64,000 bases of DNA, taken from contig NZ_CP045384.1 of assembly GCF_009363615.1 (NCBI RefSeq), positions 33,501 to 97,500 of the forward strand. Reading direction: 5' to 3'. Position 1 is the first letter of the stretch. Every line of letters starts with the position of its first letter. This document shows, in pieces, positions 7,125 to 25,625 of the stretch. The position numbers and the translations under genes are program-made. Source of the stretch: Ruegeria sp. THAF33. Lineage in GTDB: Bacteria; Pseudomonadota; Alphaproteobacteria; Rhodobacterales; Rhodobacteraceae. The notes beneath the pieces were generated by a model. The model was not told where the DNA came from and ran no database searches. It was given only the letters and a program-made list of their open reading frames with translations.

Positions 7125-7153
7125 TGATCCACGGGGCTTGATACCGCATAAGT
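7125..7153 (+). promoter_or_regulatory. Candidate RpoE (ChrR-type, singlet oxygen) promoter
   Basis: TGATCC at 7125-7130 and TAAGT at 7149-7153 are separated by 18 bases. This resembles the sigma-E promoter pattern of Rhodobacter sphaeroides (TGATC ... TAAGA/T), whose regulon includes photolyase genes. The downstream gene here is a photolyase. Against it, the distance to the chosen start codon is about 450 bases, so a long leader or an intervening insertion has to be assumed. Confidence 0.4.
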
Positions 7154-7294
7154 CAAGCTTACTGCCTTCGATGCGCAAACAAGATGGTCCCGTTTGAATA
7201 CCTCCCTCTTGCGTTTACAGAGCTTTCGGGGCGGATGCTCTGAGGTCCGTTGCAAACCGTGCCTGGTAGCGTTCAAATCGACGGGCTGGTCTCT

Positions 7295-7344
7295 TTATCC
7301 TTTACTCAGAAATCAGACATTATCCTTTACTCAGAAATCAGACA
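7295..7344 (+). repeat. Perfect 2 x 25 bp tandem repeat
   Basis: Bases 7295-7319 and 7320-7344 are identical and directly adjacent; the unit begins TTATCCTTTACTC and ends ATCAGACA. It lies in non-coding DNA between the promoter candidate and the photolyase gene. Two copies only, with no spacer, so it is not a CRISPR. Confidence 0.9.
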
Positions 7345-7606
7345 TTCAAATAAGACAGAGATGGGCTAACCCGCTCCTTTTTTGGTGGTTTAGGGCCCAG
7401 AGCGATCACTTACCAATGTCACCTTTGTCGGGGTCTTTTTCTCTTGGACACATGCCTTGGTTGGGTTCGCGAACGCTTCCGACATTCATGTACCGAAGGC
7501 CAATGGCTTCTCTGCAAAAAACCACGTCCTAGCGGAATGCGAGGAAGACTGGAACATAGATCCATTTCTAGTGGCCATGCGTACAAACCTTGAAAACGGA
7601 GGTATC

Positions 7607-9118
7607 GTGCAGGTCGTCTGGTTCAAACGGGATTTACGGGTAAATGATCATCAGGCACTGGCGCAAGCGTCTGAGGTCGGGCCAGTTCTGCCACTCTATG
7701 TGGTTGAACCTGAGCTTTGGCAGCAACCTGACGCGTCAACACGGCAGTGGAAGTTTGTTGCTGAGACAATCGCTGAGTTGCGTGATGACCTTGGGAAACT
7801 GGGACAACCACTCATTGTGCGCACGGGACAAATTTTGGCGGTCCTTTCCAAGTTAAAAGATCGTGGTCTGATAGACGTACTTTGGTCACATGAAGAAACA
7901 GGAAACAATTGGACTTATCAGCGGGACCGTCAGGTAGCTGCATGGTGCAGGGACCACGGCGTGCGGTGGCACGAAGTACAAAACCATGGCGTTCTTCGCA
8001 GGCTCAGGTCTCGCGATGGCTGGGCGGAACGTTGGGATCGGTTTATGGCTTTGCCCGTTGCTTCACCAGTTGCGCTTAAGCATATCGACGTAGAACCGGG
8101 CTATATTCCCACGGGGCGCGACCTTAGCTTGCGGGATGATACATGTGTTGGTCGTCAAGCCGGTGGACGAGCTGTGGGTTTGGAACGTCTGAGCAGTTTT
8201 CTGACCCACCGTGGCAAAAGATACCAACGCGAAATGTCCAGCCCCTTGGAGGGGGCCGTTGCGTGTTCGCGGCTGTCGCCCTATCTGGCTTGGGGTGCGC
8301 TTTCGATGCGCGAGGTGTCGCAAGCTACTGAAAATCAGAGACGCCGGTTGCCGCCGCAGGCAAAGGATTGGCGTAAATCGCTTCGCTCGTTTTCGGGGCG
8401 TTTGCATTGGCATTGCCATTTTATTCAGAAACTTGAGGATGAACCCCGGATTGAATTTGAAAATCTGCATCGGCTCTACGATGGTCTTCGACCGAAAGCG
8501 CCAGATGCCCAGCTCTTGACCGCATGGTCCAACGGAGAAACGGGATATCCATTTCTGGACGCATGCATGCGGTCATTGCAGGCAACGGGCTGGCTTAACT
8601 TTCGGATGCGCGCAATGGTGATGGCCACTGCAAGTTATCATCTTTGGCTGGATTGGCGGGCCCCGGGTGAGCATTTGGCGCGCATGTTTACCGACTATGA
8701 GCCGGGCATTCACTGGAGTCAGGTGCAGATGCAATCAGGCACCACTGGCATCAATACCGTGCGCATCTATAATCCGGTTAAGCAGGGCTATGATCAGGAT
8801 CCAGAAGGGTTGTTCATTCGGACATGGTTGCCGGAATTGTCCCAAATTGCGGATCAGCATATCCATGAACCCTGGAAAGCTCACAACGCGAAAGACATCA
8901 TTGGAACGCTTTATCCAGAGCGTGTTTTTGACCATCTAGCGGCAGCCAAGGCCGCGCGCGAGCGGGTTTGGGGCGTGCGCCGAAGTGCGGAGTTTCGTTC
9001 CGAAGCACACGCCATCGTGACAAAACACGCCAGCCGAAAGAATCGGCGGAATCCTCGCAAAGTCGCGCGGGCGTCTCAAAATCAAAAGCAACTCAGCCTG
9101 CCTCTGGAGGATCAGTGA
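7607..9118 (+). CDS. Cryptochrome/deoxyribodipyrimidine photolyase family protein
   Basis: The 503-residue product has the complete photolyase layout: an N-terminal alpha/beta antenna domain opening with [15 protein letters not shown], and a C-terminal helical FAD domain with [32 protein letters not shown] and [16 protein letters not shown]. These are the segments that bind FAD and the lesion in class I-like photolyases, so light-driven repair of pyrimidine dimers is likely. I chose the GTG at 7607 because GGAGG ends 4-5 bases before it and the protein then begins exactly at the antenna domain. The TGA overlaps the ATG of the next gene by one base. A cryptochrome-like signalling role cannot be excluded. 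Confidence 0.87.
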
Positions 9119-9255
9119 TGAAGATGCGCAAGAAAGCCGACTTACCCCAGAAGGTTTGCCCGGTCTGCCAGCGCCCGTTCACGTGGCGCAAGAAATGGGG
9201 AAACGTTTGGGATGAGGTGAAATACTGCTCGAAAAAATGCAGATCGGCTGCATGA
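9118..9255 (+). CDS. DUF2256 small CxxC protein
   Basis: This 45-residue peptide has two CxxC/CxxxC pairs (CPVCQRPF and YCSKKC) around a basic FTWRKKW segment, matching the short DUF2256 family. The pairs suggest a single zinc-binding knuckle. Its ATG overlaps the photolyase stop (ATGA), and its own stop overlaps the start of the following gene by four bases, so the three are translationally coupled. DUF2256 is commonly found beside photolyase genes, which implies a role linked to these flavoproteins, but no mechanism is known to me. Confidence 0.85.
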
Positions 9256-10496
9256 CCGAGATGTTTTCAGAACTTGATGAAGCGAAAGAGACGTTCGATT
9301 TCAAACCCACACGGACCAACGGTCTTATAAGGCTGAAGCAGTTCGCGGGACGCACCGGGCGCCATTACGCAAGTACGCGAAACTACGATATTGGGACTGA
9401 GCGTCGCAGCAATGTATCGGGTTTGTCACCTTGGCTGCGCCACCGTTTGATAACAGAGAAAGAAGTACTGGCAACGGTTTTAGCGTCGCATAATTTCAAC
9501 GCGGCGGAGAAATTCGTGCAAGAAGTTTTTTGGCGCACGTACTTCAAGGGTTGGCTGGAACAAAGGCCCAGCGTCTGGTCACTGTATCAGCGGGATTTGC
9601 TGAGCGCTTGTGAGCGATTAAGGGATGATGAGGGCCTTAAGGCCCGTTTCAATGATGCAGTGAACGGCAATACCGGCATCGACTGTTTCGACCATTGGGC
9701 GCGGGAACTGGTGGCGACAGGCTACCTTCATAACCATGCGCGCATGTGGTTTGCATCAATCTGGATTTTTTCACTTCGCTTACCCTGGCAGCTTGGCGCG
9801 GATTTCTTTTTGCGACATTTGCTGGATGGCGATCCCGCATCGAACACGCTGAGCTGGCGCTGGGTTGGCGGATTGCACACGAAAGGCAAAATTTACCTCG
9901 CGCGCCCTGACAATATTGCCAAATACACTGAAGGACGGTTTCAACCGAAAGGCCTGGCCAAATTTGCAGAACCGCTGACCGAGCCGGTAGAACACCCGCT
10001 CGTTCCCCTTTCAAGTCCGCAAATGCACTCAGACAGCCCTTATCTGTTGCTGTTGACAGAGGATGATCTGTCAGCTCATCAATTGATGCCAACATCGCCT
10101 GTTGCCAAGATCGGACTTTTGGCGACGCATGGTCGATCCCCAAACCCGTTGGGAGACGTTGTACAGGATTTTGCCAAGGGCGCGATGAGCAGCGTCTTGG
10201 AAGCCCACGGAAAACTCGGGCAATCGACCGAGGACTGGTGTGGTACGTTGATCGAGGCAGCACGGAATGCAGGTGTTACGACCATTGCAACAGCCTATGC
10301 GCCTGTCGGTCCCACTCGGTCACGGCTGGATCGTGCAGAACCTGTATTGAGAGACGCAGGCCTTTCCTTGAACAGGATAATGCGGCCGTACGACGCTTTA
10401 ACATGGCCTCATGCGAAGGCCGGGTTCTTCGGCCTTCGAAAGAAGATCCCTTCGCTTCTACGCCAACTGAACTTGGCCACCCAACAAAGACCATAG
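9252..10496 (+). CDS. Photolyase-like protein with N-terminal FAD domain
   Basis: The 414-residue protein begins almost at once with the photolyase FAD-binding fold: [53 protein letters not shown] and [15 protein letters not shown] are seen within about the first 225 residues. The usual N-terminal antenna domain is absent. Residues from about 255 to 410 instead have an alternating strand/helix character ([38 protein letters not shown]) that could be an antenna-like domain moved to the C terminus. It is coupled to DUF2256 upstream by a 4-base overlap and lies 3 bases before the next photolyase gene. Whether it repairs DNA, senses light or is an accessory is unknown. Confidence 0.75.
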
Positions 10497-10499
10497 CCC

Positions 10500-11993
10500 A
10501 TGTCCACTGCCGCCCTTTTACTTCCCAACCAATTGTTTGCCCAACACCCGGGCCTGGCCGCCCGGCCCGATACTGTTGTACTTTTCGAAGACCCGCTGTT
10601 CTTTGGCGACGCGTATTATCCCGCCACGATGCACAAGCAAAAGCTTTGGCTGCACCGCGCCTCAATGGCGCGCTATCGCGATGGCTTGGTCGCCAAGGGC
10701 TTTGATGCTGCGATCTGGCGCTTTGAGCGGCAGCCGGGTGCATGTCTGCGGCTTTTTCAGAACCTGCGTGATCGTGGTGTCAGCCGAGTGATCATGGCTG
10801 ATCCAGTAGACTTCATTGCAGAAAGACGTTTTCGGGCAGCGGCTGGCAATACCGACATCACGCTCGATATCCAGCCATCCCCCGGCTTTATGAATACGCG
10901 GGCCGACAATCTGGATTGGTCTGCCGGTCGAAAACGCTGGTTCATGGCGGAGTTCTACAAGGGCCAACGCCGCCGTTTGAACGTGTTGATGGACAGCGGC
11001 CAACCGGCCGGGGGACAATGGAGTTTTGACGAGGAAAACCGAAAAAAAGTGCCCAAGGCGCTGTTGGGCAGCCTGCCTTGGATCGACTGGCCTGCCCATG
11101 ACGCAGTTGATGAAGCTGCAAAAGCGAGCGTTATCGCTGAATTTCCAGATGCATTGGGTGGCCTGGATACGCTATTTTATCCGACGTCACACAAAGCTGC
11201 ATCCGACTGGCTGGCGCAGTTTCTGGAACGGCGGTTCGAACACTTTGGCGACTATGAAGATGCTATTGTCGAGGGGGAAAACTGGCTGTGGCATGCCGTT
11301 CTTACGCCTGCTTTGAACATTGGCTTGTTGACGCCGAAGCAAGTTTTGGACGCTGCCTTGGCGCATGCTGATCGCAAGGGAATTCCCCTGAACTCGGTAG
11401 AAGGATTCATCCGCCAGATCATTGGCTGGCGCGAGTTTATGCGTGCTACCTATGAGAACCTTGGTGTGCAGATGCGCACTACAAACCATTGGGGCCATCA
11501 TCGCCCTATGCATCGCTCTTTCTACAACGGAACCACTGGTATTGATCCGCTGGACGACACGATCAAAAGGGTGCTCGAAACCGGGTATTGCCACCACATT
11601 GAACGCCTTATGGTACTGGGAGGATTTATGTTTCTGTGTGAGATTGATCCAGACCATGTCTATCGCTGGTTCATGGAAATGTTCGTCGACAGCTATGATT
11701 GGGTGATGGTTCCCAATGCCTACGCGATGAGCCAGCATGCCGATGGCGGGTTGATCACCACCAAACCGTATTTTTCCGGCTCAAACTACATTCGAAAAAT
11801 GAGCCATTGGGGCAAAGGGCCCTGGGCAGATATCTGGGACGGGCTTTATTGGCGCTTTATCCTGAAACACACCGATAGACTTGCTGGCAATCCCCGTTGG
11901 GCGATGATGTGCCGTACGGCTGGGCGCATGTCGCCAGAGGTCAAAAACAAGCATGTCACGACGGCTGAAGCCTTTTTGCGACGTATGACGTGA
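10500..11993 (+). CDS. PhrB/CryB-type photolyase-related protein lacking the 4Fe-4S cysteines
   Basis: The 497-residue protein belongs to the deoxyribodipyrimidine photolyase-related group (Agrobacterium PhrB, Rhodobacter CryB), shown by ALLLPNQLFAQHP at the start, LNSVEGFIRQIIGWREFMR, HHIERLMVLG and SQHADGGLITTKPYFSG. Known members carry a 4Fe-4S cluster on four cysteines (350, 438, 441, 454 in PhrB). Here the matching places read TGIDPL (Pro350) and MSHWGKGP (Gly438, Pro441), and the loop to LYW is about ten residues shorter with Asp where the last cysteine should be. No cluster can form. It is last in the operon, 3 bases after the FAD-domain gene, and may repair (6-4) lesions or act as a light sensor. 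Confidence 0.85.
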   Translation: MSTAALLLPNQLFAQHPGLAARPDTVVLFEDPLFFGDAYYPATMHKQKLWLHRASMARYRDGLVAKGFDAAIWRFERQPGACLRLFQNLRDRGVSRVIMADPVDFIAERRFRAAAGNTDITLDIQPSPGFMNTRADNLDWSAGRKRWFMAEFYKGQRRRLNVLMDSGQPAGGQWSFDEENRKKVPKALLGSLPWIDWPAHDAVDEAAKASVIAEFPDALGGLDTLFYPTSHKAASDWLAQFLERRFEHFGDYEDAIVEGENWLWHAVLTPALNIGLLTPKQVLDAALAHADRKGIPLNSVEGFIRQIIGWREFMRATYENLGVQMRTTNHWGHHRPMHRSFYNGTTGIDPLDDTIKRVLETGYCHHIERLMVLGGFMFLCEIDPDHVYRWFMEMFVDSYDWVMVPNAYAMSQHADGGLITTKPYFSGSNYIRKMSHWGKGPWADIWDGLYWRFILKHTDRLAGNPRWAMMCRTAGRMSPEVKNKHVTTAEAFLRRMT

Positions 11994-12159
11994 ACATGAA
12001 ATTTACCCGCGCAATGTCCTACGCTGGATTAAGGTCGCCTAGTCCCAGCCACACTACAACGGAGGTTCTGATTGAGGCGGACCAAGGTAGATGCTTACAA
12101 AGCAAGCTGCAGCAACTTGCGGAAGCCATTATGGCGGTGTGAGCTTCGTTTTCTAGCTA

Positions 12160-13038
12160 TCAAAATTCGGGAATATCAAAAACATACAGTCGCGATTTCT
12201 CGGCATCATCTGTCAGGATGTAGAGAAGTCCATTGGGCTCATCCAGGGCGATCCCTTCTGGATGCTTTACAACCTTACGGTCGCCGTCTGTCATATAAGT
12301 TAGTTCTATTGTCTCTGCCGTTCTCGTCTCGGGATTGTACAAAAAGATCTGGCGCCCTTTGTCGCTCAGAATCCACAGTACACCTGAGGACGCAGACCAA
12401 GCCAATCCGCTTACATCCAGCTCATCGTCATTTACGCGATCGGACATAAAACCAGATTTGCGATCCAATGGGGTGATTTCCTCGATCTCCGTCAGCTCTG
12501 GGGACAATACCAGCAACAACCGCGGTTTCCCTTCGATGACCACGAATACTCGCCCAGTGTCCGGATCGACTGTGATGCCCTCAGGCCCTTTGTTCAATGG
12601 ATTACCGACGAGCATTTCAGCTGCATCCGAATAACCCTTGAGAGTAGCAAGTGGAACCGTTGTAAGTTGAATGGGGTCGGTTGGGTGAACGACTAGAATT
12701 GACCGGTCAGTTTCCTGAAGCACCAAAACAGATCCATCTTTTCGCCAAGCGACACCCTCGAGGTCTGATCCCTTCAGTGATGGCAACTTGAAAGAGTTTC
12801 CCAATGCCCCGTCGATTCCAAGGAGATGCAGTTTAGGTTCGGCATCGCTGACAGACCACAAGAAGCCTTCAGCGCTGGAAAGCGACAGACCTGAAGGCTC
12901 TGAAAACCCTTCTGATTTGTCTGCGACCTTGAACCTATCGACCAGAACCAGATCAGCACTTTCGGCGCATGCAGGATCAGCCCACAGCGGGAAGGCTGCC
13001 GCCACTAACCCGGGCGCAAAAGCGAGCCGTCTAAGCAT
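12160..13038 (-). CDS. SdiA-regulated-type secreted beta-propeller protein
   Basis: The 292-residue product starts with a Sec signal peptide (MLRRLAF then a hydrophobic stretch ending DPACA) and continues as repeated blades such as EPSGLSLSSAEGFLW, DLEGVAWRKDG, GPEGITVDPDTGRVF, DVSGLAWSASSGVLW and HPEGIALDEPNGLLY. This five-blade spacing resembles the SdiA-regulated (YjiK) family. I chose the ATG at 13038, which has GGAG 7 bases upstream and exposes the signal peptide; an upstream ATG at 13092 adds 18 residues. The family's function is unsettled (phytase-like or esterase-like activities are proposed). It stands apart, leftward, beside the exported-protein cluster. Confidence 0.75.
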   Translation of the reverse strand: MLRRLAFAPGLVAAAFPLWADPACAESADLVLVDRFKVADKSEGFSEPSGLSLSSAEGFLWSVSDAEPKLHLLGIDGALGNSFKLPSLKGSDLEGVAWRKDGSVLVLQETDRSILVVHPTDPIQLTTVPLATLKGYSDAAEMLVGNPLNKGPEGITVDPDTGRVFVVIEGKPRLLLVLSPELTEIEEITPLDRKSGFMSDRVNDDELDVSGLAWSASSGVLWILSDKGRQIFLYNPETRTAETIELTYMTDGDRKVVKHPEGIALDEPNGLLYILTDDAEKSRLYVFDIPEF

Positions 13039-13273
13039 AAAGAAGCTCCGTGAAATTTCAGGTTTTGACGGAAACACTTTGTTTTCTGCCATTCAGTTTT
13101 CTCGCCCGTGGATCACATCCCTTTATCGCGTTCTTATCACAACTCAGATGCGATGTCGGAAGAATGCTCATTGAACTCTTTACCTGATCCCGATTGTTGC
13201 GATTGAATTGAATGGGGCATGATGTGCCTGTGGTGAAGCCTAAGCCCTTGGCCTGAGCAGGAAGGAAGAAAAG

Positions 13274-14032
13274 CTGAATACGACATTCCCGTTTAAAACC
13301 GCGTTGTTGATGCTGCTGTTGCCAGGCGCTGCGGTGTCGCAAATCGATCCTGCAACGATGCTGGCCGGAGCTTCGGAATCAGAAATTCTGATCGAACGCC
13401 AATGGACTCAGTTTCGCGGCAAACAGGAACTGTATTTCTTTACTCTCGATGTGGTGGTCACGATCATTCTGGCTGGCTTGATCGTCTATCATCCGGTGAG
13501 ACGCAAAGCCCGTAGAAGCATCGGCGACTTGGTCATGCCGAGGCTTTTCTTCCTTTATGCGCTTATCGGCATGGCTGTTGGATTCCTGGTTGTTCAACAT
13601 GGGTCAATGATCGGATTCGTTATCTTTGGCATCGGCGCGTTGCTCAGGTTCCGATCCAATCTTGATGATCCGGTAGACACCGTTGAAATGATAGTCGTAA
13701 CTGTTCTTGGTCTTGCGGTCGGTTTGGGCTTGCCACTGATGGCCACACTGGTAGCGATTGTGTGTTGGTGCTTCATTTGGCTCGGAGGGCGAAACAAGGG
13801 CGTGGAAGTTTCGCTCAAGGCTTCAGATGAAGAACACTCATTGAACGTCAGCGGAGACATTGAAGCCATGGCCGCAGACGCTGGCTGGAAGCTTGTCAGA
13901 AAACACCACGTCCCCGGCAAGTCTCGCGTTTCATTGCTTTTCATTACTTCGGGTGGACTTTCAGAAGCCCGGATCGAAGAGATGATAAACGATCTGGTCC
14001 CCGAAAAAGTCGAGTTGAAACTCAACCTCTAG
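13274..14032 (+). CDS. DUF4956-like multi-pass membrane protein
   Basis: The protein has an exported N terminus and about four or five membrane helices, then a soluble C-terminal domain of roughly 80 residues (EHSLNVSGDIEAMAADAGW ... EARIEEMINDLV). GALLRFRSNLDDPVDTVEM in the middle matches DUF4956-type membrane proteins, which elsewhere accompany CotH-like kinases and polyphosphate polymerases. There is no ATG before residue 13 of the frame: a CTG at 13274 follows GGAAGGAAG and gives a sound signal peptide, while TTG at 13304 or 13307 would leave it uncharged. I therefore prefer CTG, with moderate certainty. The stop abuts the convergent phosphoesterase stop with no gap. Confidence 0.65.
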   Translation: MNTTFPFKTALLMLLLPGAAVSQIDPATMLAGASESEILIERQWTQFRGKQELYFFTLDVVVTIILAGLIVYHPVRRKARRSIGDLVMPRLFFLYALIGMAVGFLVVQHGSMIGFVIFGIGALLRFRSNLDDPVDTVEMIVVTVLGLAVGLGLPLMATLVAIVCWCFIWLGGRNKGVEVSLKASDEEHSLNVSGDIEAMAADAGWKLVRKHHVPGKSRVSLLFITSGGLSEARIEEMINDLVPEKVELKLNL

Positions 14033-14974
14033 TTATTTCACAAGGTCCAATCGTTTCAACACCGCATTCGGGGATCTGATCTCTTTCGGTAGTGACTTGA
14101 AGTTTACAGACCTTTCGAAATTGGGCCCTCGATATACTGCTATCCCAAACTCTCCGTTCGGCTGGAACGTAACATGAGTGAAGCTGTGTGGTGATCTGGC
14201 TTTTGAGCCGATAAGCCGTCGTGGACCACCGCCCAAACAAGCTTGGGAAACATAGGCCACACCGTCTTTCCAGCCTGGGTAGAAGGCATGATGGTGGCCG
14301 GACAGATGCAGAACGACCCCGCTTTGCAGGTAGATTTTCTCAAGTGTCGGGTCACCGATGATTTCGCGTTCGCGCTGGATCGCGAAGGGCCAAAGCGGCA
14401 GGTGACTGAAAGTGACAATCGGGTTTCCATTCGCCCCCAGCTCCTCAAGTTGGTCCTTCTGATCGCCGGATAGCGGCCCAAGGGTCGTGGCATCCAAAGA
14501 CGCAAACGTGACGCCTTGCATCTCAAACGCGTAGAAGAACGGATAGTCATCCGAAACCAGGAAATCGACGTCTGGTTTTCTCGGCGCCCATTCCTCGGCG
14601 TAGATTTTTCTTTCACGTTCGAAACCACGGTAGGCAGAGGCATCATGGTTTCCCGGCGTGACCGCAAATGGAATTCCGGCAGCCTCCAGCGGGTCTGACA
14701 CCGCCTTGTGAAACGCCTTCCACATCTCTCTGACCTGTTTGTCTGACAAGTTGGGAATGCGCTGACCCGCAACCATATCTCCGGTCGAAACCACCAGATC
14801 GGGATCAATCTCGATTATCCGTTCAATTGCCTTGTCGACACGGGCATCGTATTTTATCGAGCCGTAGCTTCCGTTCAGATCCGATATGACGATTACATCC
14901 AAAGCCGCCGCTTTGCAGGCAAGCAGAGCGGACCAAATCAACACCGCCGCGGTGACGGAGCGCTTACGGGTCAT
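14033..14974 (-). CDS. Exported calcineurin-like metallophosphoesterase
   Basis: The 313-residue protein has a signal peptide (first 24 residues) and the metallophosphoesterase motifs in order: DLNGSYG at 32-38, GDMV at 65-68, GNHD at 108-111, FSHLPLW near 200 and GHHHAF near 237. The first motif normally reads DxH; here the histidine is asparagine (N34), which may alter the metal site. It should hydrolyse phosphate esters in the periplasm or outside. Its start overlaps the end of the kinase-like gene by 11 bases, so it is translationally coupled to it and is last in the leftward run. Its stop meets the DUF4956-like gene end to end. Confidence 0.8.
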   Translation of the reverse strand: MTRKRSVTAAVLIWSALLACKAAALDVIVISDLNGSYGSIKYDARVDKAIERIIEIDPDLVVSTGDMVAGQRIPNLSDKQVREMWKAFHKAVSDPLEAAGIPFAVTPGNHDASAYRGFERERKIYAEEWAPRKPDVDFLVSDDYPFFYAFEMQGVTFASLDATTLGPLSGDQKDQLEELGANGNPIVTFSHLPLWPFAIQREREIIGDPTLEKIYLQSGVVLHLSGHHHAFYPGWKDGVAYVSQACLGGGPRRLIGSKARSPHSFTHVTFQPNGEFGIAVYRGPNFERSVNFKSLPKEIRSPNAVLKRLDLVK

Positions 14975-16397
14975 TACAGTCCACAGCCTTTACCTCGGTG
15001 TCGTTTTTCAAAAAGAATGCGACGGGGTCCAAGTCGAACATCAAAACACCTTTTGAACAATTGCTCTGGAGAATGGACGTTGCCAGCGCTGTATTTTTAA
15101 CGGCTTGCGCAATCTGCCTATCTGACAGGCCAAAGCTTTGCGACAACCAGTCATAAATCGGGCCTTGCGTTTGAAGGTCATTATTCAAAGCAAACAAGCG
15201 CTGGTAAGTGCTTGGAGAAAAGTGTCGCATTTTCTCCAACATCTGAGTGGATTTCGCGAAGTTGGCATATTCGACACGCCCACCAGCATCGTTGTCGTTT
15301 AGATTGCTGCGACGGATCAATAATGCGTCGGCTGGAACATCTCCATCGTTTGGCTTATGGTGCTTGGCCTTCTTGTGCTTCAGGTCTCCGTCTTCGACCC
15401 AATACCAATAGGGTGTGAAGTCTATGTTTCCTACGCGGTCCTGCTGGCTAAAGATGAAGTCGAGCAGAACAATCTCGGTAAGTTCTTGCATCCAAAATGC
15501 CATCTGTTGGTCGCTGACATCGGGGCCGAGATCCTTGTTGATCTGCCGATCCTTTCGACCTTCCCTGACACCCTCTACAATGGCCTCGGGCAAGGGTTTT
15601 GAAGACCGCAAGGCCAAGAAGGCGGGTGTTTCCTGAAAATCGCGGTTTTGGCCTTTGCCCCAACCGGATTTACGGGTGCCGTTGATTTCCGAGCCGTAGC
15701 GATGACCGGGGCTGTCAAGCAGGACACCGTATATCTGCGTTCGATCCGCGGTGAACAGATCATCGGTTGGCTGGTACGAGTTCGGACCGGCATCCGCAGC
15801 CACGAATACCCGCCAGCCTTCATGGTTCATGCGCCCGCCATGAGAGCCACCAGAAATCGCAAGGCCGGGCTCTGCGACCTCGGTGAGATGCGCCTGAGCG
15901 TCCATGCTACGCCAGACCGCCACCGGAACGTTCACCGTCGCGTCGAAATACCTGGAGAAATGGTAGTAGAGCAGCGAAGAGGTTGAAAACGTTCCGCTTG
16001 TACCCTTCTGGTTCATGGTGGATTTGAATTTAGCCACCCTGTCCTTTGCCAGATCTTTTGCCGCCTTCCCCTCTTTGCAAGCGTTTCTCTCGAATTCGGA
16101 ACGGTTCCCGGCGTAGGGTCCTTCCGAAATATCGTAGACGGCCATTCCTGGGCTGGTGCTCCAGGTTTTTGGGCAAACAGCAATTTCGGAGGCATAGAAA
16201 TCAATCTCGCAATAGGTTGTTTCTTCCTCAAGATCGCTTTTCTTATACTCGCCCGTTGGAACTTTTTCGATCCGAATACAGCGTTCAGTAACGCCGTTGG
16301 GACTATCAAATGTCGTGGCTTCACCGAGAACATCGTCGTTCGCACACAAGATGGTGGGTGCAATGAAAGCAAGAGACCCCAGAAGATGGAACTTCAT
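14964..16397 (-). CDS. Secreted protein with HipA/Fam20-like kinase motifs
   Basis: The 477-residue product has a signal peptide (to about residue 19) and several cysteines (40, 63, 75, 107), as in an exported protein. I do not recognise a named family, but LLYYHFSRYFDATVNVPVAV (residues 142-160) resembles the lobe-linking region of Fam20/HipA-fold kinases, FIFSQQDRVGN at 314-324 resembles their catalytic loop (DRHxxN-like), and LNDNDAGG at 366-373 stands where the metal-binding aspartate is expected. The inferred role is a periplasmic or extracellular kinase, unproven. It lies 19 bases after the PTP-like gene and overlaps the phosphoesterase gene, so kinase and phosphatase functions are genetically coupled. 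Confidence 0.6.
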   Translation of the reverse strand: MKFHLLGSLAFIAPTILCANDDVLGEATTFDSPNGVTERCIRIEKVPTGEYKKSDLEEETTYCEIDFYASEIAVCPKTWSTSPGMAVYDISEGPYAGNRSEFERNACKEGKAAKDLAKDRVAKFKSTMNQKGTSGTFSTSSLLYYHFSRYFDATVNVPVAVWRSMDAQAHLTEVAEPGLAISGGSHGGRMNHEGWRVFVAADAGPNSYQPTDDLFTADRTQIYGVLLDSPGHRYGSEINGTRKSGWGKGQNRDFQETPAFLALRSSKPLPEAIVEGVREGRKDRQINKDLGPDVSDQQMAFWMQELTEIVLLDFIFSQQDRVGNIDFTPYWYWVEDGDLKHKKAKHHKPNDGDVPADALLIRRSNLNDNDAGGRVEYANFAKSTQMLEKMRHFSPSTYQRLFALNNDLQTQGPIYDWLSQSFGLSDRQIAQAVKNTALATSILQSNCSKGVLMFDLDPVAFFLKNDTEVKAVDCNDP

Positions 16398-16416
16398 TTG
16401 AATAGTCCTCCGGATA

Positions 16417-17061
16417 TCATCTAGGGCAAATCGCAGCCCGTTGTTCGGCGGAAATCTTCAGGTTGGGGTCGACACTGAAGTTGGAGAATTTTGCGTCAAT
16501 CCACTTGTCGCATCCGCCTGAACATGGGGCACCGTTTCGGGCATCATTCCAATATTCCTTGGCCCTTTCTTCCGTCCAACCGCAAAACTGAACAAGCGCC
16601 ATTGCCGACAGTGCGCCAGAGGAATGAACGCCCCACATGCAGTGTACCAGGACAGGGCCCTTTCCAGGGTTTTCAATTACTTCGTGTATGGATGCCATGA
16701 CGGCACCGGGACGGGAGGATCTGGCGCTCTGATAGTCAAAGGATCCGTTCCCACAACTGGTGCGGCCGTACTGAGTGTTTTTGCCGAAGTCGGCATAAAA
16801 CCCGGTTGAAAACCCTTTTTCGCACAAGGTTTCGCGTTGAACGTCACTCAGACCCGTTCGATCCTTGTCGCCGCCCTTGAAACCGGATCGATACAACACA
16901 CCGCTTAAGACTGGGCGGAAGAAAGCGACGCCATCGACCCCTCCGTCGCCACTTTTTGAAAGCATTTGGCTGTTGCTAGGGCCACCGTTTCGGCTGGTGA
17001 CGCCAGAAGTCGCAGCGGTTGCCAGAACACCAATGAATATGAGTGACGTCAAAAACCGCAT
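16417..17061 (-). CDS. Exported PTP/dual-specificity phosphatase-like protein with altered P-loop
   Basis: The 214-residue protein has a signal peptide (about 19 residues). LYRSGFKGGD (57-66) and the following LSDVQRETLCEKG resemble the start of PTP-fold proteins, and VLVHCMWGVHSSGALSAM (137-154) is the P-loop helix. The catalytic cysteine is C141, but the CX5R arginine is replaced by serine (S147), so it may be a pseudophosphatase or use a different anion-binding residue. Four further cysteines near the C terminus (PCSGGC and around) could form disulfides. It is directly followed by the kinase-like gene, 19 bases away. Confidence 0.7.
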   Translation of the reverse strand: MRFLTSLIFIGVLATAATSGVTSRNGGPSNSQMLSKSGDGGVDGVAFFRPVLSGVLYRSGFKGGDKDRTGLSDVQRETLCEKGFSTGFYADFGKNTQYGRTSCGNGSFDYQSARSSRPGAVMASIHEVIENPGKGPVLVHCMWGVHSSGALSAMALVQFCGWTEERAKEYWNDARNGAPCSGGCDKWIDAKFSNFSVDPNLKISAEQRAAICPR

Positions 17062-17178
17062 GCGTGTTCCTTTCTGTGTTCAGCCCGTGATGCTCACACT
17101 TTTCCAGCCGGCAATCTCTCGGAGAGACACATTCACCGTAAACATCTTTGGTGGCGGTTAGCGTCCCGCCGCGAAGCT

Positions 17179-17352
17179 TCAAATTGGCCACACCAGATTG
17201 ATGATAACGACGACCACGAAGTAGGCCAGAACAACTTTCCAATTCCACTGGTGTTTGTTTTCTTCGTTGATCACGCCGGCCGATTTCAATGCCAGGTTTG
17301 TGATAATCAAAGCGACAACGATGACCGCCGCATGTGCCAGATCGAAATGCAA
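17179..17352 (-). CDS. Small two-helix membrane peptide
   Basis: A 57-residue ORF starts at a TTG preceded 7 bases upstream by AAGGAGC. It reads MHFDLAHAAVIVVALI... with a first helix at about residues 7-23, a hydrophilic EENKHQWNWK linker and a second helix at about 39-54 ending LVWPI. Nothing is recognised by family. Size, ribosome binding site and topology make it a believable small membrane protein; it lies between the lipoprotein gene and the PTP-like gene, in the same direction. Confidence 0.6.
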   Translation of the reverse strand: MHFDLAHAAVIVVALIITNLALKSAGVINEENKHQWNWKVVLAYFVVVVIINLVWPI

Positions 17353-17393
17353 ACTAGAGCTCCTTTTTTCTGATTTGGGATTGTTGAAAATTG

Positions 17394-17699
17394 TCAGCAG
17401 TCGCCTGATGGCAGCATAGTTACATCTGAATACCTTCCTTCAGATGTCGTGATCCGCGCACATGCGCCGGTATCTTTGTTAAACCAGTAAGAGGTCAGCC
17501 CTTCGCTTCGGATAAGTTCAAACCCGAGACTTTGAATGCCCATTTCAGCCTGACCCGCTCTGGCCCCTTCAAATGACGAAAGATCGCTAGAGCTGCCCAC
17601 AGTTGGTGCACTCGCATCCACTGACCCGCCACTCTCGTCGCATGCTGAGAGTACAGAAATACACACTGTACCGATCACCAAAAAGACTTTGGATTTCAT
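17394..17699 (-). CDS. Small lipoprotein
   Basis: The 101-residue protein has a clear lipobox, LSAC, with the acylated cysteine at residue 20, so it should be anchored to a membrane on the periplasmic side. After a Ser-rich linker comes a compact domain (GFELIRSEGLTSYWFNKDTG ... RYSDVTMLPSGDC) with two cysteines that could pair. The domain style (Y-W-x-N ... T-G-x-C) is familiar from many small exported alphaproteobacterial proteins, but I cannot name a function. It is part of the leftward run of exported proteins and is 41 bases upstream of the two-helix peptide. Confidence 0.8.
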   Translation of the reverse strand: MKSKVFLVIGTVCISVLSACDESGGSVDASAPTVGSSSDLSSFEGARAGQAEMGIQSLGFELIRSEGLTSYWFNKDTGACARITTSEGRYSDVTMLPSGDC

Positions 17700-17752
17700 C
17701 TGTTTTTTCCTAGCTGATTTGAGTTGCCGTTCCAGGGTTTTCCGTCGATCAC

Positions 17753-18367
17753 CTATTCAATTCCGAAAATTACGTTGTAGCCGACGGAAGAGTTGCCGCG
17801 GTTGATGACCTCGACAACATGATCACCGGATTGCCACAGCTGCCCTCGATACTCCTTGTCCGCCGACATCAATCCCAACAGTTCAGAACCATCGGGGTTT
17901 CGAATAACGTAGTCCAAGGTGCCATTTCGCGGAGCAACGCGAACGTAAAGGAACTGTTCGTTTTTGGCGCCAAGGACGTATTGCTGGGACGCTCCGGGCG
18001 CGAGTTGGCCAACGAGTTCGGCGCCAGTTGAACCAGTATCAAATTTGACGCGTTGGCTTTCAGTAGATCCTTCGGCGCCGGCCATAGCTCCACCACCATC
18101 ATCCATCGCCTCGACAACCGACATCTCTCCGATGCTTCCATCCTTGTACGCGATGCATCGCCAGAGTGTCCCACCTGCGTCACGTAGCATGACCAACGTG
18201 CCAGCTTCGGAAAACTCTGAGCTTTCAATCGTACCGGATTGACCGTCTGGCCCACCAACTTGCCGTAAATGATCGATACACGCGTCATCGGCTTCCGACA
18301 TTGCAAGAGCAGCTGTGCCCGAAATTGCAAACATGGGTGTGAGGAGGTTCAGTAAACGGAGTTTCAT
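17753..18367 (-). CDS. Exported two-domain protein with C-terminal PPC-like beta domain
   Basis: The 204-residue protein has a signal peptide of about 22 residues. Residues 30-78 (C30 ... SSEFSEAGT ... WRCIAYKDG) share a domain with the lipoprotein encoded at 19087-19386. Residues 110-204 form a beta-rich module (QYVLGAKNEQFLYVRV, YVIRNPDGSELLGL, YRGQLWQSGDHVVEVINRG) that resembles PPC-type secreted beta-sandwiches. It probably acts as a periplasmic or surface binding protein, but there is no catalytic motif. It lies in the leftward cluster with 53-55 base gaps on both sides. Confidence 0.75.
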   Translation of the reverse strand: MKLRLLNLLTPMFAISGTAALAMSEADDACIDHLRQVGGPDGQSGTIESSEFSEAGTLVMLRDAGGTLWRCIAYKDGSIGEMSVVEAMDDGGGAMAGAEGSTESQRVKFDTGSTGAELVGQLAPGASQQYVLGAKNEQFLYVRVAPRNGTLDYVIRNPDGSELLGLMSADKEYRGQLWQSGDHVVEVINRGNSSVGYNVIFGIE

Positions 18368-18422
18368 CAGATTGTCCCCTGTTGGCTAATCCTTACAGTG
18401 TTCTTCTGTGCAAAGCGGAACA

Positions 18423-18722
18423 TCACTTCGCTTCCCGCAACTTGGACAGAAACTCATCGCATGCCTGTGCGCTTCCGACGATCTCGTCCGTCGTTTCAAT
18501 TCCTTGCAGGGATGCCATCTCGGAATTCACGCGATTGAGGATCTGATCCGCTTGCTCGGCGGTGATCAGATTCTCGGCTTGTGCGCCTTTCAATGTAGAG
18601 CAGACACCGGCGGACAAGCCTGTCGCAACGCCGACACCCATCGCGGCACCTCCACCCAAGGTCATCGCCCCAACCACGCCGAGGACGAGCCCGATCACGA
18701 TACCCAAGATCACTTTTCCCAT
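18423..18722 (-). CDS. Small membrane-anchored protein, glycine-rich helix
   Basis: The 99-residue protein starts at an ATG with GGGAGG 6 bases upstream (the upstream frame to 18842 is not needed). A single glycine-rich hydrophobic stretch fills residues 3-40 (MGKVILGIVIGLVLGVVG ...), followed by a soluble helical tail with two cysteines. The glycine pattern resembles glycine-zipper membrane segments. No function is recognised. It is one of several small envelope proteins in a co-directional run. Confidence 0.7.
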   Translation of the reverse strand: MGKVILGIVIGLVLGVVGAMTLGGGAAMGVGVATGLSAGVCSTLKGAQAENLITAEQADQILNRVNSEMASLQGIETTDEIVGSAQACDEFLSKLREAK

Positions 18723-18760
18723 GTTTTCCTCCCTTTTGGTGGGAATGCGTTCGGCGTTCA

Positions 18761-19033
18761 CTACTGCCGCAAACTGCGTACCCATTTGCAAATCAAGACC
18801 AGCGCTAGAAGATTGAAAACCGGTGCGAGCGCCGCGAACCACGGTTTGGTCGACTCCGAGAGCAAGTCCGCTACGAGTATCCAGGGCAACCCCAACGGCA
18901 AAAGGAACACCCCGGACAAAGGGTCTTTTTCTTGCCCCAACCAGCCAAATGTACCCGTCAAGAACGCAACCAACGCCAACAGGTAAAGGATCGCGAATAT
19001 GATAGTGGCTATTCTACAAACCAAGTCGAGCAT
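18761..19033 (-). CDS. Small multi-pass membrane protein
   Basis: The 90-residue protein has about three hydrophobic segments (residues 8-28, 40-56 and 66-83) and a basic end (CKWVRSLRQ). The ATG at 19033 has only a weak ribosome binding site. It shares no motif that I know. It lies 38 bases before the glycine-rich membrane protein and 53 after the lipoprotein gene, in the same direction. Confidence 0.6.
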   Translation of the reverse strand: MLDLVCRIATIIFAILYLLALVAFLTGTFGWLGQEKDPLSGVFLLPLGLPWILVADLLSESTKPWFAALAPVFNLLALVLICKWVRSLRQ

Positions 19034-19086
19034 TCCGATGAGCGAGCCAGTGCTGCGCGGCCGTGTTCAGCCACGCACCAAACAGG

Positions 19087-19386
19087 TCACAATGCGCCTT
19101 CGTCGCCCAGGAACTCGATACCGGCTGTGGCGCCATCACTGTAAGCAATACAGTTCCATGGGGCACGATCCTCGCCAACGCCGACGGTGACCTGGGTTCC
19201 CGCCTCGCTGAACGCAGACGACAGAACAACGACTTGCGAATTGTTCGTTGTGTTGGCTACGTCTCGCAAACACGCTTGCTGAGCGGGCGTGAGCTCGGCA
19301 GACGCGCTTGACGTACCCGTATCGTCGCAGGCAGCAAGCAGTGCGAAACATGTCGTGCCTGCAACCATCACCATCTTGTTGGTCAT
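19087..19386 (-). CDS. Small lipoprotein sharing a domain with the 17.8 kb protein
   Basis: The 99-residue product has a lipobox LAAC with acylated cysteine at residue 20. Its mature part contains ACLRDV, VVLSSAFSEAGTQV and APWNCIAYSDG, which repeats the pattern C...SSxFSEAGT...WxCIAYxDG of the exported protein at 17753-18367. The two cysteines (39 and 79) are conserved between the copies and probably form a disulfide. The family is unknown to me; the pair suggests duplication within this locus. A good ribosome binding site (GGGAG) precedes the ATG. Confidence 0.8.
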   Translation of the reverse strand: MTNKMVMVAGTTCFALLAACDDTGTSSASAELTPAQQACLRDVANTTNNSQVVVLSSAFSEAGTQVTVGVGEDRAPWNCIAYSDGATAGIEFLGDEGAL

Positions 19387-19452
19387 TTTCTTCTCCCTTT
19401 AGGTTCTTTGATCTCAATTGAATTAGAGGCGACGTTTTGAAGCTCCAGCGCC

Positions 19453-19632
19453 TCAGCGGCCAATAGTACATACTCCGAACTGGTGACTGCCGTTCCCAAA
19501 AGACTCGCCATTCAAGGTTTGGCCGGCAGAACAATATTGCGTTGATCGCATGCACTGCCAACAACGCGTGACCGCACTGGAAAAAGCTGGAGCGAATGTT
19601 GGAAGAAGAGCTAGTATTTTGAGTCTTGGCAT
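19453..19632 (-). CDS. Putative small secreted cysteine-containing peptide
   Basis: A 59-residue ORF starts at an ATG with GGGAG 6 bases upstream. It reads as a signal peptide (MPRLKILALLPTFAPAFSSA) and a short mature region with four cysteines (CWQC, YC and VC). No family is recognised. The believable start site, signal peptide and position at the head of the leftward exported-protein run support it as real; the short length keeps confidence moderate. A longer frame to 19686 adds a segment without sense. Confidence 0.5.
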   Translation of the reverse strand: MPRLKILALLPTFAPAFSSAVTRCWQCMRSTQYCSAGQTLNGESFGNGSHQFGVCTIGR

Positions 19633-19942
19633 CGCGTTCTCCCAACGCTCGGTCATTGAAAACGCCTTCCGACTGCCAGCACTCACTCCGACAGTCGGAA
19701 GGGCCCGGTAAATCGGGCGACAGCGACAACAACGGAGGTAAAATAAAGTTGCGTCGAATTCTCATATTTGAATCTAATTTTTCATAAATCAATATTTTTT
19801 CCGCGCGTAAATTTCTCTAGGCTTTCGTGCGATAGGCTTTTGCTTTCAAACAAAAAGAATGTGGGGATTTTCGCAAAAGCGAGTGTTCCCTACGCGGCCA
19901 AGCGTTGTTGACGCCGCAAAGAAACGACGAAGGGACAAAAAC

Positions 19943-20458
19943 ATGGGATTCGTTGAAGCAGTAAAAACGTGTTTTTCGAAATACTACCAGTTCTCTGGTC
20001 GGGCTTTACGATCAGAATACTGGTGGTTCTTCTTGTTTGTGGTTCTCGTGAGTGCCGTATTAGCTTTGCTGGATACGATCATATTCGGGACCAATCCCGA
20101 AACGGGGCAGGGTTCTCGGGTTCTGTCCTCTGTTTTCCAACTGGCTGTTCTCATACCCATGCTGGCCGCCGGTTGGCGGAGGCTGCATGATACAGGACGA
20201 CCTGGCTGGTATTTGCTGCTGCCGATGGCGCTTAGCATTACAACGCTTTTTGTTATGCTGGGTGGGGTGGCGTTCTTCTCGGTATTGGAGCAAGGAACGG
20301 AAAACCCCGATTCACTACGAGGACCTGCGGCAGTCTTGGGCGCAACCGGCATTGTTGTTTTCTCAATTCTTCAATTGGTTCTGTCCATCCTGATGATCTG
20401 GTGGCTAACGCGCCCTTCTCAAGAAGGCGCAAACGAATACGGCGCACCTGTTTCCTGA
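19943..20458 (+). CDS. DUF805 membrane protein
   Basis: The 171-residue protein matches the DUF805 family: YYQFSGRALRSEYWWFFLF at the N terminus, four hydrophobic helices, WRRLHDTGRPGW between the second and third, and an ANEYG motif near the C terminus. DUF805 proteins sit in the inner membrane and are often found with phage or envelope genes; the role is unknown. I chose the ATG at 19943 because AGGGA lies 7-8 bases upstream; the frame to 19859 adds 28 residues of unlikely character. It is divergent from the leftward exported-protein run, with about 310 bases between. Confidence 0.85.
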   Translation: MGFVEAVKTCFSKYYQFSGRALRSEYWWFFLFVVLVSAVLALLDTIIFGTNPETGQGSRVLSSVFQLAVLIPMLAAGWRRLHDTGRPGWYLLLPMALSITTLFVMLGGVAFFSVLEQGTENPDSLRGPAAVLGATGIVVFSILQLVLSILMIWWLTRPSQEGANEYGAPVS

Positions 20459-20533
20459 TCTGGTTACCCGGGCGGTGGGCCCGACGCTCTGCTGAAAGAA
20501 AGAGCCAAATGCAACGCCGTGGAGAGAGAAAGA

Positions 20534-21304
20534 ATGAATTTCAAGCCGATTTCCGTTGGAGCGCTGATGATGGCAATGGCAACCACAGCATCGGCGGAGT
20601 GGTCGTTCAGTTCCGGGCCTAGTCCCAATGCATTTATTCAGACCGGAAACATGACGCTGGAACTTCAGTGTAACCGTATCCGCTTTGCTCCGGCTGGATA
20701 TGAGGACAGCCAGGACATTGTGCAGAAGCAGGGGCTTTCCATTCGATTTTTGAAGAACGGCACCACCGAAGTTGGGGCATTTCAGGTTGGCGCAGAAAAC
20801 GCTGCCGTGCAGATCGTCGACAACTATCCCGTCGAAGTCAGTTTCAATAGTCAAGAGGACTATGGTTTTGTACTGGACCAGCTTGCGGCCAATGCATCGG
20901 TTAATCTGTCCATGATTGATCAAGATATCAGCTATGGAATCTTTGACTTGAAAGGTTCCAGCGCGGCAATTCAGTCCCTTCGTTCCGCCTGCGATTCAGG
21001 TGCTCGCCAGGGGGCCTCCTACGAAGCGCCCGAAGGCATCGCCTATTGTGGTGGCGGAGCGGTAGAGCGCGTGATCGAACCGGTAATTTTGGACACTCCG
21101 GACGGGGAGTGGGACGCGCGAGTATCGGTCAATGGCGAGTTGATCAGAGCCATGACCGCCTATAGTTATTTTGGAAACTCTAAGCCGCCGGCCGGATTTG
21201 TCGTCGCCCTGCTTGGGGAAGACAGGTCCGAGTTTCTGATTTTTAACGAAGGCGCGGAAAACTGGCTGGAATACGGGGACTTCAGATATGATCAATGCAA
21301 TTGA
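20534..21304 (+). CDS. Exported protein of unknown function
   Basis: The 256-residue product starts at an ATG with GGAGAG upstream and has a signal peptide of 21 residues (MNFKPISVGALM... ASA). The mature part is beta-rich, and IFDLKGSSAAIQSLRSAC (about residues 137-154) is a segment I have seen in many alphaproteobacterial exported proteins of unknown function. Cysteines could pair. The next gene overlaps its stop by 17 bases, so the two are probably translated together. It follows the DUF805 gene by 75 bases in the same direction. Confidence 0.7.
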   Translation: MNFKPISVGALMMAMATTASAEWSFSSGPSPNAFIQTGNMTLELQCNRIRFAPAGYEDSQDIVQKQGLSIRFLKNGTTEVGAFQVGAENAAVQIVDNYPVEVSFNSQEDYGFVLDQLAANASVNLSMIDQDISYGIFDLKGSSAAIQSLRSACDSGARQGASYEAPEGIAYCGGGAVERVIEPVILDTPDGEWDARVSVNGELIRAMTAYSYFGNSKPPAGFVVALLGEDRSEFLIFNEGAENWLEYGDFRYDQCN

Positions 21305-21824
21305 CGCCGCCTTCCAATCAGTTTCCCCAATAGAGCACCAGCTGAAGTATTTGGTTTCCGGGATCGTACTTGTTTCGGGACTAGTTTGGACCTCACCAGC
21401 TGTCGCGGCTGATGTATCGCAACTTCCGCCCGGTTTGCAGGCGAAGGTTGATCTGGCGGCACGAGCCTGCGCGGAGTTCAACGGCGGTCAGTTTGACATA
21501 GCCTGGGGCGCGGTTGAAAGGGTCGATCTCGACGGAGATCTACAACGCGACTGGGTTCTGAATGAGTCTGGTTTTGCGTGTTCAAGCGCTGCATCCCTTT
21601 ACTGCGGTACCGGCGGATGCATGTCGCATTTTTGGGTTAGCGAAGAGGTGCATTCCCTGCTCAACCAAGGCTGGGCGGTCGTTGATTTTGGGAGCCAACG
21701 CATTGTCATCGCGGACGTGCATGGATCCGATTGCGAGGGAATCAATCCGACGCCATGCGTCAGCGCCAGTATTTGGGATGCCGAAGCCAAGACTTGGCGC
21801 TCGTCTGCTGGAAGCTGGGAGTAA
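21288..21824 (+). CDS. Exported protein of unknown function
   Basis: The 178-residue protein has an N-terminal hydrophobic export segment at about residues 20-41 (YLVSGIVLVSGLVW ... AVAA). The mature region has a DxDGDxQRDWVL acidic loop and an unusual cysteine run (FACSSAASLYCGTGGCMSHFW) and a later DCEG/PCVS pair, so disulfides are likely. The ATG overlaps the previous gene and has GGGGA 9 bases upstream. No family is named. About 800 gene-poor bases follow. Confidence 0.7.
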   Translation: MINAIDAAFQSVSPIEHQLKYLVSGIVLVSGLVWTSPAVAADVSQLPPGLQAKVDLAARACAEFNGGQFDIAWGAVERVDLDGDLQRDWVLNESGFACSSAASLYCGTGGCMSHFWVSEEVHSLLNQGWAVVDFGSQRIVIADVHGSDCEGINPTPCVSASIWDAEAKTWRSSAGSWE

Positions 21825-22339
21825 ACTGTTTTTTGTGTTTAGCAACTGTGCCAGAGGACCCTGTTTGTTCTTGGGATTCTCTGTGGCATGCAAATCTGTG
21901 GGATAGCTGTACAAAACTGTGACCGAATACCGCGCAGATTTATGGGTTAGGTTCTGCGGTTTTTCTTAAGTCACAGGGCGGCCTATACCCTTCAACCGCA
22001 GGTAAATCCCCACGACCTCAGACAAAAGAACAGATGACGAGGAGGCAACAGCGGCAGATCAGAGTGGTCGGCTCCTGCTGCATTTTGAAGCCTCGGCATG
22101 TGCTTCACCGCAAGTTCTTCGTCACGACACCTCAGGTGGTACCAGTATTAATCGAGCTGATCGGCAGCTCTTCTGGCTTTCATTTCAGCGATCATGGGCG
22201 ACTTTGTGCGAAGGGAAGGCACGCGAGCAGCAACCAGACCACAGCCATTGGCACATTGCCGATTTTTGGGAAGGACGGGAATGGATGTAGGCTCCACAAT
22301 GTTCAAAAACCAAGTTCCCGTTTTCGCAACACGTCGCGC
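21825..22339. other. Gene-poor stretch with decayed DNA
   Basis: No ORF here is convincing. The rightward frame 22034-22507 (157 codons) has no domain and overlaps the recombinase remnant that follows. On the leftward strand a 79-codon frame (22148-22387) also lacks a recognisable family. Together with the broken recombinase this reads as the scar of an old mobile element. Confidence 0.5.
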
Positions 22340-22500
22340 CCCTGGAACAAGGGACGGCTGTTGGTACAGAAGCGGCCATGCGGCCAAAGCAGGCTTGGGT
22401 CATTCACCCCCGGCTTGAACTCGCAAAAACCTGAGAAAGCTTGCTCTGTTACATCGTGCTATCGACAGCAAGTTGCGTGGATGCCGTCGACAACACAGAT
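22340..22500 (+). pseudogene. Remnant of a tyrosine recombinase/integrase (frameshifted)
   Basis: Read in three frames in turn, this stretch gives PWNKGRLLVQKRP, then RPKQAWVIHPRLELAKT, then RKLALLHRAIDSKLRGC. These match, in order, the start of a common proteobacterial tyrosine recombinase (WNKG-x-LIGQKRPL-KPKxVWxIRxRLxL ... RDLALFNLAIDSKLRGCDLV). At least two frameshifts and loss of the rest of the gene make it a pseudogene. The catalytic C-terminal half is not seen. No intact partner lies near. Confidence 0.7.
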
Positions 22501-22627
22501 CGCGTAGGACAGCAGCGAAACATCCAAGCACGCGAAATACTCTATTCGAAACCCCCTATTTTCACAGATCTGCTGTGATCCAGTTGGGAGCTCGGCACCT
22601 GATCAGTGGCAGGCCAATTGCTCACGC

Positions 22628-23587
22628 TTAGGGCTTGGCCTTTTGCACAGTTTGCCCGCAGGTAGGGCAGTGATCGGCCTGGGACATGGTCTCAGCGTGT
22701 ACGCGGTTTCGGATATGATCGGCAGCGCGACGCGAGAGACCCAATTGCTTGCGAACGGCTTCAATAACGGCCTCGTCCGCGTCGCAGATATCGCCGTCTT
22801 CCAAGGCCTTTCGAAATTCACGTTCCAGGCTGGCTCGTCGGCGGTGCAACTGGTCGTTCAGACCGCTGGCAATGATCCCTGCGGGCAATGCGGCCATCCC
22901 AATGCCAATCACCGTGATCGCAGCGCCGAAGATCTTACCGGCAACTGTCACGGGCGTTACGTCGCCATAACCAACGGTCGTAAGCGTTGCCATCGCCCAC
23001 CACATCGCCGCTGGGATCGATCCAAATGCCTCCGGTTGCGCCTCGTGCTCTGCCAGCCATGCACCGCTGGCAGCAAAGATCAGCATCACCATCAGGATGA
23101 AAAAACCTGCAAAAAAGGCGCCGGCCTCTTCCTCAAACACAGCGAGCAGCATTCCGAGTGCAGGCGAGTACCGAGTGAGTTTGAGGAGCCGCAACATGCG
23201 GAAGGTCCGCAACAGACGCAGATCAACCGGGAAGATCAAATAGAGCAGCGCAGGTAAAATCGCTAATAAATCGATGATGGCGATCGGGGAGACGGCCCAG
23301 GCAGCGCGCGTTTTGTAACTTGGATTTTCGGTGGCGACCCACAGTCTTGCCGCGTATTCGACAACGAATACGAATAGAGAAAAACCCTCAAAGAGGTTCA
23401 GCGCCAGGCCCCAACGAGTATATATGGAGTCGACCGTTTCCAGGATAACGGCGGCCACGTTCAGTGTGATGAGGGCAATTAGAGCTATTTCAAGCAACCA
23501 TGGACCGGTGGCCGCCCTGTCCGGGCGCTCGAGCCACCAATAGACTTTCCTTTTTAGATAGCCCGAATTTGTAACTGCCTCACTCAT
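22628..23587 (-). CDS. Voltage-gated-type potassium/ion channel
   Basis: The 319-residue protein has the six-helix channel plan: helices between residues 24 and 180, an S4-like arginine helix (LRLLRTFRMLRLLKLTRYS) near 120-140, and a pore with the K+ selectivity filter TVGYGD near residue 207. The C-terminal tail ends in CPTCGQTVQ, a possible metal or redox pair. It should conduct K+ across the inner membrane. Its ATG lies 8 bases inside the LtrA-like gene's stop region, so the two are coupled; the LtrA-like gene is upstream on this strand. Confidence 0.88.
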   Translation of the reverse strand: MSEAVTNSGYLKRKVYWWLERPDRAATGPWLLEIALIALITLNVAAVILETVDSIYTRWGLALNLFEGFSLFVFVVEYAARLWVATENPSYKTRAAWAVSPIAIIDLLAILPALLYLIFPVDLRLLRTFRMLRLLKLTRYSPALGMLLAVFEEEAGAFFAGFFILMVMLIFAASGAWLAEHEAQPEAFGSIPAAMWWAMATLTTVGYGDVTPVTVAGKIFGAAITVIGIGMAALPAGIIASGLNDQLHRRRASLEREFRKALEDGDICDADEAVIEAVRKQLGLSRRAADHIRNRVHAETMSQADHCPTCGQTVQKAKP

Positions 23588-25622: not shown

Positions 25623-25625
25623 GGC

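Follow-up and report, generated by a model that had tools for sequence, protein, structure and literature searches.

What might a bacterium gain from sending a kinase-like protein out of the cytoplasm together with two phosphatase-like ones? The question is raised by three leftward open reading frames (ORFs) of Ruegeria sp. THAF33, located in a stretch of 64,000 nucleotides (the window; assembly GCF_009363615.1, contig NZ_CP045384.1, positions 33,501 to 97,500, forward strand) and encoding a protein tyrosine phosphatase (PTP)-like protein, a 477-residue kinase-like protein and a metallophosphoesterase (Table 1). A first-pass annotation had read them as a single cassette for writing and erasing phosphate outside the cytoplasm, a function that, judging from their motifs, they may have. 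On balance, we favour the view that they form, in the Roseobacter group, a module for extracytoplasmic phosphorylation, and we consider the whole mechanism proposed below somewhat likelier to hold than to fail. To our knowledge few bacterial kinases act outside the cytoplasm, and no description of this module was found in the open-licence PMC literature, preprints lying outside the scope of that search. If this view is true, bacteria would offer, in a conserved module with a Fam20-like fold, a genetically tractable system in which to address the source of the phosphate donor of extracytoplasmic kinases, the role of DUF4956 proteins and that of a PTP that keeps its Cys and lacks its Arg.

Table 1. 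Genes of the proposed module and adjoining ORFs, in window coordinates
Feature	Position	Strand	Remarks
PTP-like gene	16417..17061	-	214 residues; dual-specificity-phosphatase fold (predicted); P-loop HCMWGVHSSG
477-residue Fam20-like kinase-fold protein (predicted)	14964..16397	-	Fold match and invariant motif residues
Metallophosphoesterase	14033..14974	-	PF00149; purple-acid-phosphatase-like by profile
DUF4956-like predicted membrane protein	13304..14032	+	Convergent with the operon in the window
SdiA-regulated/phytase-like beta-propeller	12160..13092	-	PF06977 E 3e-22, PF13449 E 1.5e-12; linked in most loci
Small ORF, 57 residues	17179..17352	-	TTG start, two hydrophobic segments by eye; membership doubtful
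Small putative lipoprotein (by eye), 101 residues	17394..17699	-	Membership doubtful

Conservation and extent of the module

The annotated layout was confirmed in detail: the ORFs are spaced by 19 bases (PTP-like/kinase-like) and -11 bases (kinase-like/metallophosphoesterase), and the motifs DRVGN, NDNDAGG, HCMWGVHSSG, GNHD and GHHH were each located in the translations. Conservation was examined in 198 genomes of the family, a class-wide sample of 385 genomes and 45 fetched loci. The same 11 of the 198 genomes carry the kinase-like, PTP-like and metallophosphoesterase genes. The kinase-like gene was found in 13 genomes, intact with the module in those 11, divergent and without partners in G197 and decayed in G013; the PTP-like gene was found in 12 (the same 11 and a weak partial match in G077), as was the metallophosphoesterase (the same 11 and a fragment in G013), for which G073 has a second, weak match. 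In 42 of the 45 loci the three genes follow one another on one strand as PTP-kinase-phosphoesterase, even where the kinase-like protein has as little as about 60% identity. These 42 include the window's own locus, and four repeat another, leaving 38 distinct. The exceptions are L012, with an isolated kinase-like gene of 39% identity, and L013/L014, which are two retrievals of a single decayed locus; L023 is cut by a contig end. All three genes are under purifying selection, with ratios of nonsynonymous to synonymous substitution (dN/dS) of 0.072-0.105 in nine comparisons with three relatives. This constraint, together with the preserved order and strand, indicates that the module is more than a chance assembly.

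The claim of a single cassette stood for the three genes as a conserved unit and fell short in extent, the unit being larger and including a DUF4956-like gene and, in most loci, a beta-propeller gene. As annotated, the DUF4956-like ORF of the window ends directly against the metallophosphoesterase ORF, on adjacent bases. This gene was found in 30 of the 31 named loci (L015-L045), the truncated L023 being the other, and in 11 of the 198 genomes, of which ten are module genomes and one is G101 (weak, with stops). It lies downstream on the operon strand in Rhodovulum (L035), Celeribacter (L038) and Tateyamaria (L037), and upstream beside the propeller gene in Aliiruegeria and Tropicimonas (L042, L043, L034); its position and orientation thus shift yet it stays close, so the linkage outlasts rearrangement. 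The propeller gene is present in 27 of the named loci and was not seen in L023 and L036, which have short flanks, or in L039 and L041, which do not.

Ordinary exported proteins without joint function could in principle lie side by side by chance, and small exported proteins (204, 101 and 139 residues) do crowd this region, the 204-residue family occurring in 26 of the 198 genomes, 16 of which are not among the 11 with the module. We regard this explanation as extremely improbable in view of the order and strand kept across the loci, the identity of the 11 genomes that hold all three genes, the persistence of the DUF4956-like gene nearby, and the scarcity of lone members, confined among the 198 genomes to G197, G013 and the weak partial matches in G077, G073 and G101.

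Beyond the family, one of the 385 class-wide genomes was matched, the window's own, and by their names some homologues come from a metagenome bin of Gammaproteobacteria (P0036) and from Pseudomaricurvus (P0160), a gammaproteobacterium. Distance correlations among the module proteins (0.59-0.93) were computed without species-tree control and are not used as evidence. In G013 (L013/L014) the decayed kinase-like gene lies next to the metallophosphoesterase fragment, and loss of the module seems to be under way in this relative. By score, 19 listed matches (P0121-P0139) fall in a divergent branch, the aligned ones sharing 39-44% identity with the window protein; one of its genes, at L046:8500-10110, lies near an MFS gene and encodes the same protein as Actibacterium pelagium P0121.

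Predicted fold of the 477-residue protein

Searches of Pfam and NCBIfam and a phmmer search of the PDB returned no match for the 477-residue protein, and a profile search of the PDB returned only insignificant ones (E 1 to 1.5, to phosphorylase kinase, outside the catalytic motifs); its closest named homologues are from Ruegeria species, at 90-93% identity. At the level of structure the kinase-like reading was upheld, the predicted fold being that of a kinase of the Fam20 type that the annotation had named. Fam20 was the best fold match in the PDB by two aligners, the second of which re-ranks the list of the first, and K125, D320-R321-x-x-N324 and D368-N369-D370 are invariant in all 42 aligned homologues. 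Like Fam20, the protein has a D-R catalytic segment in a similar LLD-F/Y-I/L-x4-DR context and a D-N-x metal motif, and it is apparently exported and cysteine-rich. Unlike Fam20, it lacks the full D-R-H-H-Y/F-E and D-N/H-G motifs, of which only D-R and D-N are retained, and its gene has bacterial operon partners. One study describes FAM20 as specific to eukaryotes or to Metazoa and groups some Legionella families with FAM20/CotH (PMC9758233), and another reports that CotH resembles Fam20C and has no DFG motif (PMC12189002). Among 299 sampled genomes of the phylum no match to PF06702 (Fam20C) exceeded the cut-off, with one weak fragment and none in the protein's own genome. Among the rows listed by the fold searches there is no CotH entry, an absence compatible with a CotH fold. 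One Ruegeria atlantica homologue (P0002) bears the UniRef label 'CotH protein', despite the result of the CotH profile search of the family given below.

Several observations weigh against a Fam20-like kinase module. The Foldseek TM-scores, normalized by query length, are moderate across the Fam20 rows (0.32-0.41), and none of 35 family members matches PF06702 at E up to 1 or PF08757 (CotH). The His that Fam20 carries two positions after the catalytic Asp is replaced by Val (120), Ile (28), Pro (19) or Ala (1) in 168 sequences, and its Glu at +5 by an Asn at +4; these changes imply that substrate and catalytic details differ from those of Fam20. In addition, ATP is scarce outside the cytoplasm, the module genome G040 has no DUF4956-like match, and the divergent kinase-like member of L012/L046 (39% identity) occurs without its two phosphatase-like neighbours.

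Loop residues unlike those of Fam20 would also suit an atypical transferase, catalysing AMPylation or another transfer, or a nucleotide-sensing pseudokinase, and other kinase-fold families AMPylate or glutamylate, going by titles in the reference list of PMC7948968. The candidate Lys, the catalytic Asp, the Asn and the metal Asp are, however, invariant in 42 of 42 homologues, at a dN/dS of about 0.1. Such invariance is unusual for pseudokinases, and we hold an atypical transferase or pseudokinase to be quite unlikely.

Phosphatase-like partners and proposed mechanism

The metallophosphoesterase was correctly named, with a clear match to PF00149 (E 6e-16, 59.9 bits against a cut-off of 21.5) and a match to the purple acid phosphatase profile over part of the protein (E 7e-7). 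D32-x-N34, D66, N109-H110, H191, H227 and H229 are invariant in 22 of 22 sequences. It shares the GD, GNHD, SH and GHxH motifs with purple acid and tartrate-resistant acid phosphatases and other PF00149 enzymes, and differs from them in its motif 1, D-x-N, with Asn where the canonical His is expected, and in lacking the tyrosine of GDxxY.

The PTP-like protein fared otherwise. Its predicted fold is that of dual-specificity phosphatases, with weak matches to the DSPc and Y_phosphatase profiles below cut-off, and TpbA is both its second-best sequence match in the PDB and a fold match. It shares with TpbA and other dual-specificity phosphatases the predicted PTP/DSP fold and an HC-x-x-G loop, and the Cys at the catalytic position of the P-loop is retained. 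In contrast to them, the phosphate-binding Arg of CX5R is replaced by Ser or Ala (once by Cys) and is absent from all 120 homologues listed and all 38 distinct locus copies. The annotation as a cysteine phosphatase is thus not supported; having lost this Arg, the protein is unlikely to be a classical PTP eraser.

The presence of a PF00149 enzyme and a phytase-like/SdiA-regulated propeller in one module raises the alternative of a phosphate-scavenging set, in which the exported phosphoesterase and the propeller live on organic phosphate, with the remaining genes in accessory roles. We judge it very unlikely: kinase-like and PTP-like genes stand beside an intact phosphoesterase in 11 of 11 genomes, and the PTP-like protein is without the Arg expected for phosphatase catalysis.

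In the extracytoplasmic phosphorylation module that we favour, the 477-residue protein would be exported through its N-terminal signal and fold as a Fam20/PI4KII-type kinase. Signal peptides of the module proteins were assigned by eye, and from these and conserved cysteines we infer that the proteins are exported. With ATP or some other molecule as donor, the kinase would phosphorylate a protein or glycan belonging to the envelope or the secretome, and motif comparison suggests D320 as the catalytic base and D368 of the DND motif as the metal holder. The co-exported metallophosphoesterase may dephosphorylate either that substrate or the nucleotides released. Since the PTP-like protein has preserved its predicted fold and its P-loop Cys but not the Arg, it would more probably bind the phosphorylated product or regulate the kinase than serve as a canonical phosphatase. 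The DUF4956-like protein would be a conserved membrane partner, which might, speculatively, anchor the kinase or supply the phosphate donor.

Substrate, membrane partner and neighbouring genes

Which substrate such a kinase would use bears on another reading, in which the kinase-like protein, in the manner of Fam20B or PI4KII, adds phosphate to a glycan or lipid and not to a protein, its phosphatase-like partners work on that same molecule, and the module tunes a surface polymer. The top VIA match of the 477-residue protein is hydra Fam20, a glycan (xylose) kinase, followed by the PI4KII family of lipid kinases, and TpbA is among the closest sequence matches of the PTP-like protein. TpbA affects exopolysaccharide in Pseudomonas. 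Hydra Fam20 is a xylosylkinase without protein kinase activity, according to the review PMC7948968. In Gram-positive streptococci and clostridia, genes for CotH, polyphosphate polymerase, DUF4956 and DUF4832 adjoin Pel polysaccharide clusters, as PMC7112168 reports; the first-pass remark that DUF4956 accompanies CotH kinases is thereby found in print for these clusters. However, the residue of hydra Fam20 that contacts xylose, His301 (PMC5865150), is Val, Ile, Pro or Ala here, and no glycan-synthesis gene is among the window ORFs common to the loci (ORFs at 7000-26000 compared). A glycan or lipid substrate is a serious possibility that we place below even chances.

The DUF4956-like protein of the window scores 17.5 bits against PF16316, below the gathering score of 30.6, and 14 of 15 homologues match that profile at E up to 1 (best 6e-5); judged by these profiles the proteins are related to PF16316, formal membership lying below the cut-off. 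MgtC is weakly matched by 8 of the 15 (best E 0.043). The module resembles CotH (PF08757) systems in that a DUF4956-family gene lies close to the gene for a predicted bacterial Fam20/CotH-group kinase that would work outside the cytoplasm, and differs in having phosphatase-like partners instead, with neither VTC polyphosphate polymerase nor CotH matched in any of 12 module or relative genomes. More tentatively, and as an idea that we think rather unlikely, the DUF4956 family could be a general cross-phylum partner of extracytoplasmic Fam20/CotH-type kinases, perhaps bringing the phosphate donor through the membrane, and the module a second version free of polyphosphate polymerase, in which a PTP protein without Arg, reading the phosphorylated product, and a metallophosphoesterase eraser would complete an extracytoplasmic write-read-erase system.

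Other candidates were rejected or set aside. The 204-residue exported-looking protein (17753-18367) is not module-specific, given the spread of its family described above, and was dropped as a core member; it and the 101-residue putative lipoprotein turn up close to the module in several genera, their order varying. In many of the loci the latter lies no more than about 7 kb from the module. Ser-x-Glu is a Fam20C-type site, and the lipoprotein was set aside as a candidate kinase substrate because the Glu of its Ser-x-Glu is Gln in several relatives. A plasmid-borne module was rejected for want of a match in the plasmid collection, from which the window genome's own records were possibly excluded, and a defence system for want of a PADLOC match to five proteins. 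A scan for promoters and terminators, with 2 and 9 sites compared with means of 3.8 and 6.4 after shuffling, was uninformative.

Directly upstream of the PTP-like gene, the 57-residue ORF is conserved mainly in Ruegeria and Shimia-type loci. Beyond the propeller gene lie two photolyase-family genes, for a DNA photolyase (7457-9118) and a deoxyribodipyrimidine photolyase-related protein (10500-11993), and the ORF between them (9237-10496) looks photolyase/cryptochrome-like by eye.
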